From assembly GCF_008362905.1 (NCBI RefSeq), contig NZ_VFJB01000010.1, positions 85,655-149,654 of the forward strand: DNA of 64,000 nucleotides, given 5' to 3'. The DNA comes from Deferribacter autotrophicus (GTDB lineage: Bacteria > Chrysiogenota > Deferribacteres > Deferribacterales > Deferribacteraceae). Positions within the stretch are counted from its first letter, which is position 1; each line of letters begins with the position of its first letter. Shown here piece after piece: positions 55,182 to 57,641 of this stretch. The translations under genes and the position numbers were made by a program. Under the pieces are notes generated by a model. That model saw only the letters and a program-made list of their open reading frames with translations, had not been told where the DNA came from and did no database searches.

Positions 55182-55638
55182 ATCCTCCTCTAAAAAGTTT
55201 TAAAAAAATTTAACTCCCCTTACCTTTTTTTTTCTACGTTTCTATTTCAATTTAGTCAAGCATTACTTAATTCTCACCAAAAACTTATTTACAAAATCTT
55301 TTTCAAATAACTGACGTCACTCCAAAATTTACAAAACAATGTTTTAAAATACAGTGAAAAATATTTTTTGAGAAACCTGCCTCGCAAGCGGCACTGGACA
55401 TGCCACGAAAATGAGAAAAATATTTTTCCTTTGTTTTTAGTATGTAATCTACTAATAATACTCAATAATTACTATTCCTTTACAAAAAATGGGGTGACGC
55501 CAGTCAAATAAAGGTTGCATAAATTTTTAAAAGGTGCATAATAGGCAAAGTTGTTCTGTTACAGTTCGAGTTTATCAGAGTTATCTCTTTAAACGTCACT
55601 GCAGTAAACAACAAAACAAAATAATACGAGGTATAGTT
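55182..55638. other. Divergent regulatory region of potD and csp
   Basis: No gene is supported. On the minus strand TTGACT (55259-55254) and TAGAAA (55236-55231), 17 bases apart, may be the potD promoter. Near 55356-55428 two copies of the palindrome aaaaatattttt flank a short GC-richer part (gcctcgcaagcggcac). On the right lie the csp promoter and a leader of about 90 bases. Confidence 0.6.
55515..55542 (+). promoter_or_regulatory. Promoter of the cold-shock gene
   Basis: TTGCAT and CATAAT are separated by 16 bases, with TG just before the -10. Transcription would start near 55549 and leave a leader of about 90 bases, as is common for csp genes whose leader folds as a thermosensor. Confidence 0.5.
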
Positions 55639-55839
55639 ATGAGAGAAGGAACTGTTAAGTGGTTTAACGATTCAAAAGGTTATGGTTTTATAACCGAAGA
55701 TGGCGGACAAGATGTATTTGTACATCACACTTCCATTCAAAAAGATGGATTTAAGTCATTATCTGAAGGTGAAAGGGTAAAATTCCAAGTAGAAAAAAGC
55801 CCAAAAGGCTTAGCTGCAATAAATGTAGTTTCCCTTTAA
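55639..55839 (+). CDS. Cold-shock domain protein (CspA family)
   Basis: The start is placed at the ATG after ACGAGGTATAG, giving 66 residues; a longer frame from 55534 is in the leader. [31 protein letters not shown] contains RNP1 (KGYGFI) and RNP2 (VFVHH). It binds single-stranded RNA and DNA and helps translation in the cold or in general growth. A strong terminator follows. Confidence 0.95.
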
Positions 55840-55849
55840 ATTTTCAAAA

Positions 55850-55883
55850 AAAATAAAAAGCCGCTCTTAAGAGCGGCTTTTTT
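55850..55883. terminator. Bidirectional terminator between csp and the selenoprotein gene
   Basis: aaaagccgctctt / aagagcggctttt is a near loop-less 13-bp palindrome with A on the left and T on the right. It ends csp and the leftward GntR-pur operon. Confidence 0.88.
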
Positions 55884-56238
55884 ATTTTACTTGGCTATTA
55901 ACAAAGTTTGTTATTTTTATAAATATTTCTTCTGGGTCATCCAATCCCCAAGCAACAGGTTTTTTATTAACCGATACATAGGGAAGAGGGAATCTGTTTT
56001 CCACAATATTATTCACATCATCGATATAATCTAAAACTTCAGGTGATGAAATATCAACATACTTGAAATCCACACTTTCAAGGCCAAACTCTTTCGTCAA
56101 TTTTGCATCTAAAGTCTTTGCTATTTCAAAATAAGGATCATCAACTACCCCACAACCTGAGGGGAAATAAGATGGGCTTCACCCAGAAACAAATTCCATA
56201 CTTGAACCAAATAATCTGATTATAAGCTTATCTTCCAT
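55882..56238 (-). CDS. Probable new selenoprotein with thioredoxin-like fold (in-frame UGA at codon 20)
   Basis: The ATG lies 2 bases after the purF stop, with GAGGT inside the end of purF. The frame then stays open for 118 codons except TGA at codon 20 (56181-56179). Reading it as selenocysteine gives ...MEFVSGU-SPSYFPSGCGVVDD... and a C-terminal half with YVDISSPEVLDYI, RFPLPYVSVNKKPVAWG and a final helix, which looks like the cis-Pro end of a thioredoxin fold. A Cys follows Sec after eight residues. Fourteen bases after the TGA, CCCCUCAGGUUGUGGGG folds as a 17-nt stem-loop with an AGGUU loop, like the fdhF SECIS core. Whether selABCD exist in this genome is not seen. The alternative is a nonsense mutation; a shorter frame from TTG at 56100 would lack the active site. 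Confidence 0.75.
56148..56164 (-). promoter_or_regulatory. Candidate bacterial SECIS stem-loop
   Basis: On the minus strand CCCCUCAGGUUGUGGGG has four C-G pairs, a U-U mismatch, a C-G pair and the loop AGGUU. It starts 14 bases after the UGA (11 in E. coli fdhF). The GGU apical motif and the 17-nt size match what SelB needs. Confidence 0.7.
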
Positions 56239-56240
56239 TT

Positions 56241-57641
56241 TTATACCTCACTTTTTGGATTATAGCCGTTACCGTCTTTATGCAAAGTGGGGTATGCCCC
56301 ACTAAAACAAGCATGACAAAAACTGCTGTTTTCAACACAGTCAAGCATCCCTTCCAAGCTTAAATAAGCAAGGCTATCTGCTGTAATATATTTTCTTATC
56401 TCCTCTATAGTATGAGTAGAAGCAATAAGCTCACTCCTTGTAGGTGTATCAATCCCATAAAAACATGGAAATTTCGTAGGTGGCGAAGATATTCTCATAT
56501 GCACTTCTTTTGCACCGGCTTCTTTCAACATCTTTACAATCTTTCTACTGGTAGTCCCCCTTACGATAGAATCATCCACCACCACTATCCTTTTACCTGC
56601 AATCACACTTTTAACAGGATTGAGCTTAAGCTTTACTCCGAAATGCCTTATGGACTGGGCTGGCTCTATAAAAGTTCTTCCCACATAATGATTTCTTATC
56701 AATCCCATTTCATAAGGAATTCCACTGTATTCAGAATATCCAAGGGTCGCAACAATACCTGAATCAGGTACAGGGATAACAATATCAGCATCAACAGGAC
56801 TCTCTTCTGCAAGCTTCCTACCAAATGCCTTTCTTATCTCATAAACATCTCTATTAAAAATTCTACTATCAGGCCTTGCAAAATAAATAAACTCAAAAAT
56901 ACATGGATGAATTTCCACCTTCTCAAATGGGTAGTAAGAAACTATCCCTTCATCTGTAATAATAATCATTTCTCCAGGCTCTATCTCACGAATAAATTCA
57001 CCATCTATCAAATCAAGAGCACATGTTTCACTTACTAGTACATGGCTTGAGCGAATCCTTCCAAGTATCAAAGGCCTGAAACCAAAAGGATCCCTTAACC
57101 CTATCATCATATTTTCTGTCATAAAAATTAGAGAAAAAGCCCCTTTTAACCTTTGGACACTTTTGGAAATAGCATCAATAATATTTTTCTCATTCGACTT
57201 TGCCATCAGGTGAATTATTATTTCACTATCTGAAGTTGAGGTAAAAATTGCACCATCTGAAACAAGCTCATTACGTAAAACATCAGCATTTACAATATTC
57301 CCATTATGCACTAATGCAACAGACCCCAGATTAATATCAGCCACAATAGGTTGGGTATTTTTTAAATGATTCTCCCCTGCTGTTGAATACCTGTTGTGTC
57401 CAATGGCAATATCCCCACTTAAACGTTCAAGGATACTTCTCTTAAATATATCCGCAACAAGCCCAAGCCCCTTTTCTACCCTCAAACTTCTTCTGTCCGA
57501 ACAGGCAATTCCAGCACCTTCCTGCCCCCTATGCTGCAAAGCATAAAGAGCAAGATAAACTAGATTAGCAGCATCTTTATCACCGAAAACACCAGCTATT
57601 CCACATTCTTCATGGAATTTGTCAAAAACTATTTCATCCAT
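56241..57641 (-). CDS. purF: Amidophosphoribosyltransferase
   Basis: A 466-residue enzyme for the first step of purine synthesis, PRPP and glutamine to phosphoribosylamine. [10 protein letters not shown] has the nucleophilic cysteine after a 12-residue propeptide, followed by the glutaminase motif [11 protein letters not shown]. The PRPP loop is [17 protein letters not shown]. The cysteines HPCIFEF, FPCFYG and SSFCHACF correspond to the [4Fe-4S] ligands of the Bacillus-type enzyme, which is oxygen-sensitive. It overlaps purL by 13 bases and is followed at once by the selenoprotein gene. Confidence 0.96.

Follow-up and report, generated by a model that had tools for sequence, protein, structure and literature searches.

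The active site of thioredoxins lies in the loop that connects strand 1 to helix 1. A 2026 review that tabulates 119 prokaryotic selenoprotein families or subfamilies includes thioredoxin-fold selenoproteins such as Sec-thioredoxin, Sec-glutaredoxin, UXX-star, SELENOW-like, SaoT and HUIPC, and models the bacterial selenocysteine insertion sequence (bSECIS) as a 3-9 nt loop having G in its first two positions, a stem of 4-16 bp, a distance of 16-37 nt from the UGA and a minimum free energy (MFE) <= -7.5 (PMC13188914). The proteins named are mostly small, with an active-site selenocysteine (Sec) in motifs such as UxxC, CxxU, UxxT or GxGU, and are encoded by a UGA with a downstream bSECIS. Here, we describe a conserved gene located directly behind purF in a 64,000-nucleotide stretch of the Deferribacter autotrophicus genome (NZ_VFJB01000010.1, positions 85,655 to 149,654; hereafter, the window), in which the UGA at codon 20 is very probably decoded as Sec. 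The product would be a selenoprotein with a thioredoxin fold and a distant relationship to YuzD, and most likely represents, as predicted from sequence comparison, a new family of selenoproteins that act as thiol/disulfide oxidoreductases.

The product resembles the thioredoxin-fold selenoproteins listed above in its general features and differs from them in motif, which is U-x8-C in Deferribacterota and C-x3/4-U in a divergent paralogue (L030) and in the homologues from Chloroflexota. With YuzD (DUF1462, PF07315) it shares the thioredoxin-like fold, the size and the C-terminal two thirds of the sequence; unlike YuzD, which carries Cys residues (a CxxC) in the loop, it has a predicted Sec, and 8 residues separate Sec20 from Cys29. 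The first-pass annotation had proposed an undescribed family, in agreement with the review, where DUF1462/YuzD is absent from the 119-family table and neither YuzD nor PF07315 occurs in the text (PMC13188914). Term searches of two other papers found no DUF1462 in PMC12013277 or PMC9312934 and no YuzD in PMC9312934; in the open-licence literature, the papers listed by searches for YuzD, DUF1462, Deferribacter, Herpetosiphon, Seleniivibrio and general selenoprotein topics contained none on this family, and among the DUF1462/YuzD matches listed, only PMC3091736 was relevant.

The gene occupies positions 55882..56238 on the minus strand, the strand of all the parts described here, and comprises 118 codons followed by TAA. 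Its ATG lies 2 nt past the stop codon of purF (56241..57641), a Shine-Dalgarno-like GTGAGG is located within the purF 3' end (56246..56251), the in-frame UGA is at 56179..56181, and a SECIS-like hairpin, CCCCUCAGGUUGUGGGG, with the loop AGGUU begins 14 nt 3' of the UGA (56148..56164). The first-pass annotation had given exactly this layout, including the Shine-Dalgarno sequence inside purF, and had named no strand. With UGA read as U, the predicted product is MEDKLIIRLFGSSMEFVSGUSPSYFPSGCGVVDDPYFEIAKTLDAKLTKEFGLESVDFKYVDISSPEVLDYIDDVNNIVENRFPLPYVSVNKKPVAWGLDDPEEIFIKITNFVNSQVK. The codon of Cys29, the candidate resolving Cys, is at 56152..56154.

When 50 genomes from the phylum Deferribacterota were searched in all six frames, the gene was matched in 19 of them, at 21 loci in total, with exactly one in-frame TGA in the match at each locus (at L024, the match extends beyond the true TAA stop). 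In all 20 main copies, purF is directly upstream, separated from the start by 2-15 nt (in L025, the two frames apparently overlap), the UGA is at codon 19 or 20 in the context SGU-(S/A/N/G)-P-S, and Cys29 is kept; the copies other than that of the window are 54-77% identical to the window protein, and codon 20 is TGA in 19 of the 19 aligned main rows. The genera named among database matches are Deferribacter, Seleniivibrio, Denitrovibrio, Calditerrivibrio and Limisalsivibrio. The 21st locus, L030, assigned by database entry P0031 to Limisalsivibrio acetivorans, is a divergent paralogue (26% identity) that joins the main family at a profile probability of 98; it has its own UGA in CTSGUMP, with a Cys before the Sec, and lacks both Cys29 and an upstream purF. 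One genome (G025) contains two main-type copies (L018, L029) on separate contigs, each with the UGA and each behind a purF.

Beyond this phylum, a Pfam DUF1462 search of 384 relatives yielded L090 (MVYRLEIFGRSSDASCGYGUGPRMPS..., one TGA); because two close relatives of its genome encode proteins ending in the Herpetosiphon entries P0038 and P0039, the L090 group belongs to the Chloroflexota. When 400 Chloroflexota genomes were searched, 14 places in 12 genomes were found, 12 of which are homologues (L093-L104), all with exactly one TGA and with 99 to 21% identity to L090. Comparison of the profiles of 13 main rows and 10 of the 12 Chloroflexota homologues gave a probability of 98 (E 2.2e-13); separately, the main family matched the Herpetosiphon type at 78 and L101-L104 at 96, with column-shuffled controls not exceeding 1.1 and 3.4 (alignment A7 leaves out L095 and L098, which are close to others, and A8 leaves out L013, L015, L016, L018, L020, L028, L029 and L030). 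Thus, the UGA is present at 33 of the 33 homologous loci counted (21 in Deferribacterota and 12 in Chloroflexota), which bears out the Sec half of the earlier proposal to look for homologues with Cys or Sec at this position. L100 is short, with 82 aa, and may be damaged.

The hairpin covaries across species. In alignment A3, from which L030 and L028 (the same as L027 over the stretch shown) were omitted, 92.2% of the stem cells are paired across 17 distinct rows, versus 47-60% with the partner slid by 1-3 columns, and none of 500 shuffles came up to the observed percentage of pairing, number of double-change cells (10) or covariation score. Coarser measures on the same alignment are ordinary (2 pairs with double changes, as in 218/500 shuffles; 5 further pair types, 402/500). 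Pair 18-34 is seen as CG, UA, UG and GU, and pair 22-30 as GC and AU; base 3 of the Cys29 codon stands opposite base 1 of codon 27, as U/U in the window and paired in most relatives. On one side of the pair, several of the changes are silent (at the third position of the Phe25 and Cys29 codons), so the covariation exceeds what protein constraint alone explains. In Chloroflexota, the hairpin aligns in a single register with no gaps; 95.5% of it is paired across 11 distinct rows, and in 4 of the 6 pairs both partners have changed (8/500 shuffles reach 4, and 0 reach the 10 cells), with an ordinary number of further pair types (483/500).

The window hairpin fits the published bSECIS model with the loop AGGUU at 20 nt (closing the A-U pair gives GGU at 21 nt) and an MFE of -11.9 for the 48-nt fold. 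The E. coli fdhF SECIS is a 17-nt upper stem-loop with AGGU in the loop that starts 11 nt after the UGA; compared with it, the window hairpin has the same 17-nt size and AGGU, starts at 14 instead of 11 nt and has a different stem sequence. A hairpin model (R1), built from rows that include the window hairpin, finds that hairpin as the sole match with E < 0.3 in its own genome (the next has E 0.33), and was significant at the window hairpin only when run against L030, L050, L090 and L099-L104. It is likely that this covarying hairpin, 14 nt 3' of the UGA, directs Sec decoding; of the SECIS-like element first proposed, the fit to the model and the covariation hold, and the fold of the lone sequence is ordinary.

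The D. autotrophicus genome (2.5 Mb in 10 contigs) encodes selA, selB and selD, all 3 proteins above cut-offs, as well as a tRNA-Sec with the anticodon tca, the complete set for which the first-pass annotation had suggested a search. The selD gene (locus L050:1531-1533) is a predicted selenoprotein gene too, with an in-frame TGA (AAGUAAKIG) and a hairpin with a GGA loop 17 nt 3' of the UGA, which independently suggests that this genome reads UGA as Sec. None of the 9 molybdopterin-oxidoreductase frames in the genome contains an in-frame UGA within its match. The UGA codon also serves as an ordinary stop, terminating 7 of the 40 window frames longer than 200 codons, which rules out a genome-wide reassignment of this codon.

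The product is predicted to be a thioredoxin-fold protein, a distant relative of YuzD (DUF1462). The fold model (b-a-b-a-b-b-a) puts the UGA residue in the loop that leads from strand 1 into helix 1, and Pro86, invariant in alignment A1, just ahead of predicted strand 3; Sec20 and Cys29 in the predicted loop and the Pro before strand 3 are the features of a thioredoxin-fold oxidoreductase, with L030 lacking Cys29. In a fold test, the YuzD structure 1xg8 (SA0789/SA0798) had the same fold and was the best match, so that both the model and this structure back the initial guess of a thioredoxin-like protein. In a six-frame DUF1462 search, one relative (G013) scores 25.7 bits, and 9 of 10 Chloroflexota members match DUF1462 (best 5.4e-11); none of the NCBIfam selenoprotein models was significant (best E 0.17 and 0.13). 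The most resilient alternative accepts the selenoprotein and takes it for an ArsD-like metal or metalloid carrier instead of a thiol/disulfide oxidoreductase, given that 2 of 10 Chloroflexota members weakly match Pfam ArsD (best 0.0083) and 1 of 10 NCBIfam ArsD (0.04), and that ArsD structures are among the Foldseek rows. We consider it rather unlikely, because the same members score far better against DUF1462, ars genes are found in 0 of 10 among the neighbours scanned, and thioredoxin-reductase-like genes and a PDO-type oxidoreductase (below cut-off) lie beside divergent copies.

Almost all database entries of the family are truncated. A search of 5.8 billion proteins with the family profile returned 30 entries, of which 28 (alignment A4) start at window residue 31 or later; the two omitted from A4 are P0002, the window's own fragment starting at residue 47, and P0008 (142 aa), which follows a different reading frame upstream of the join. 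All 8 entries obtained with a Chloroflexota query start at MPS, past the UGA. Thus, 37 of the 38 database matches are C-terminal fragments, under names that include hypothetical protein, Glutaredoxin and disulfide oxidoreductase YuzD, and with the N-terminus and Sec missing, the active site cannot be seen. An NCBIfam scan of P0001 gave no matches, none of 19 pattern matches in viral contigs was a relative, and tblastn of P0001 and P0032 against plasmids found no matches.

These 37 truncated matches, all beginning past the UGA, are also an argument for a true stop, with the first 19 codons forming a leader peptide or the remnant of a broken gene and a separate gene starting internally downstream, as annotated; UGA termination is the default and ends long frames in the window as well. 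Such an arrangement appears very improbable, as protein-level conservation extends over residues 1-19, which share the frame of the remainder at the 33 loci counted, neither TAA nor TAG occurs at this codon in any of the 33, and predicted thioredoxin strand 1 is encoded before the UGA. Over 19 rows and 171 pairs, with the same omissions as in A3, the mean pN/pS is 0.32 for codons 1-19, 0.30 for codons 21-31 (the hairpin) and 0.40 from codon 32 to the end; judged by these ratios, the codons on both sides of the UGA are evolving under protein constraint.

The distribution of the gene follows that of selA, which was found in 20 of the same 50 Deferribacterota genomes: both are present in 18, the gene only in 1, selA only in 2 (G015, 88% complete, and G049, 96% complete) and neither in 29 (Fisher p 1.9e-10, a statistic that ignores shared ancestry). 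In genus g6 (G020-G022, near-complete), both are absent, whereas the other nine members of family f5 have both. Readthrough without selenium, with Trp or Cys inserted through a near-cognate tRNA or a locally altered code, could in principle be promoted by a hairpin located 3' of the stop codon; it is very improbable, the least likely of the alternatives, in view of this joint presence and absence, the complete Sec system, a loop and spacing that fit the bSECIS model, and the use of UGA as a stop elsewhere in the genome.

Several observations weigh against the interpretation of this gene as a hairpin-dependent selenoprotein of the YuzD lineage. With respect to the hairpin, the 48-nt window sequence folds at -11.9 kcal/mol (z = -0.49), which 59 of 200 shuffles equal; the isolated 17-nt stem reaches -6.2 kcal/mol against the threshold of -7.5, which isolated model-conforming stems attain at 16 of the 34 UGAs predicted to encode Sec, that of selD among them (the background is 186 of 3,928 UGAs in any frame at the same loci, the 34 included); pair 22-30 of A3 is unpaired, always U against a pyrimidine, in 6 of the 17 distinct rows, including the window; and in L017, L018 and L029 the scoring script prefers another stem. 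Among the gene-carrying genomes, G013 (87% complete), the sole Deferribacterota genome with the gene only, and the Chloroflexota carrier G410 (88% complete) have no selA match; in Chloroflexota, selA is found in 11 of the 12 carriers and 330 of the 400 genomes overall (p 0.70), so common that co-occurrence there is uninformative. As to the fold and relationships, the window protein scores 21.8 bits against Pfam DUF1462, under the gathering cut-off of 25; the fold model has a pLDDT of 67.5, with residues 15-33, the active loop, below 50; L030 matches the Herpetosiphon-type profile at a probability of only 28.7; and the profile alignments place the Chloroflexota Sec opposite Cys29, not Sec20. 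Finally, no full-length Cys homologue was found by a search that reaches proteins sharing exact 5-residue words, which leaves the distant YuzD family as the only Cys-bearing counterpart and the Cys half of the proposed homologue check without a match at close range, and no thioredoxin reductase was recognised within 1.5 kb on either side of the 13 Deferribacterota loci listed.

If the gene encodes a selenoprotein oxidoreductase, the SelB/tRNA-Sec system would read UGA codon 20 as Sec under the direction of the downstream hairpin, and in Deferribacterota, Sec20 would attack a disulfide or an oxidised thiol, with Cys29 as the resolving residue. In the Chloroflexota proteins, the Cys with this role would precede the Sec (CxxxU or CxxxxU), in keeping with the Cys found 4-5 residues before the Sec in both L030 and the Chloroflexota homologues. 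The Sec20-Cys29 redox pair first suggested is consistent with the retention of Cys29 in the main copies and does not extend to L030 and Chloroflexota, with their Cys on the other side. Since the L030 Sec is aligned with Sec20 and the Chloroflexota Sec with Cys29, either the loop may have grown, or Sec and Cys may have swapped places.

The genomic neighbourhood suggests partners for the predicted enzyme. A thioredoxin-reductase-like gene is located downstream of 3 of the 4 most divergent Chloroflexota copies, which points to NADPH, through thioredoxin reductase, as the possible electron supply. In L101 and L104, the next gene is a thioredoxin-disulfide reductase over the cut-off, after a 6-nt gap in L101 and overlapping as TAATG in L104; L103 is followed after 264 nt by another reductase of this type, which scores below the cut-off; a PDO-type disulfide oxidoreductase, also scoring below its cut-off, is encoded near L102 and L104. 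In Deferribacterota, redox upkeep of PurF is a candidate role, a lead that comes from purF as the constant partner, with Cys motifs, kept in 20, 20 and 19 of 20 loci, that we take to be iron-sulfur-cluster ligands. The best solved relatives of this PurF are 6lbp (chloroplast), 1ao0 and 1gph, the latter two being the iron-sulfur enzyme of Bacillus. The PurF of the window has a short prosegment before the Cys. More speculatively, and with considerable doubt on our part, the whole could be a Sec-only YuzD-like clade that relies on a dedicated thioredoxin reductase in some Chloroflexota and is linked to an oxygen-sensitive iron-sulfur PurF in Deferribacterota, with the sides of Sec and resolving Cys swapped between the phyla.

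If correct, the prediction adds to the known selenoproteins a family that spans two phyla and is missing from the 119-family table, and would represent, as far as our searches show, the first selenium form of the YuzD lineage. It is also a clean case of truncation by annotation pipelines. The thioredoxin-reductase and purF neighbours are testable leads to the electron donor and the target, and the switch between U-x8-C and C-x3-U would be a natural experiment on why one side of a redox pair uses Sec.

A few candidates were rejected in the course of the analysis. Two of the 14 Chloroflexota places, L105 and L106, lack a TGA and belong to 260-aa frames that do not resemble the family; L079 and L080 (in G367 and G241) and L092 are weak matches that were dropped once the frames were read; and at L091, with one TGA in the match, the small YuzD-like frame was not found. 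An Rfam scan of positions 55500-56700 gave 53 matches, none to a SECIS family, the best being a cspA thermoregulator, below its cut-off (66.3 bits against 78), in the region of the downstream cold-shock gene on the plus strand (55550-55885). At the stop codon of the selenoprotein gene, an intrinsic-terminator-like stem of 12 pairs (55855..55882, minus) scores on the plus strand too, for the cold-shock gene.
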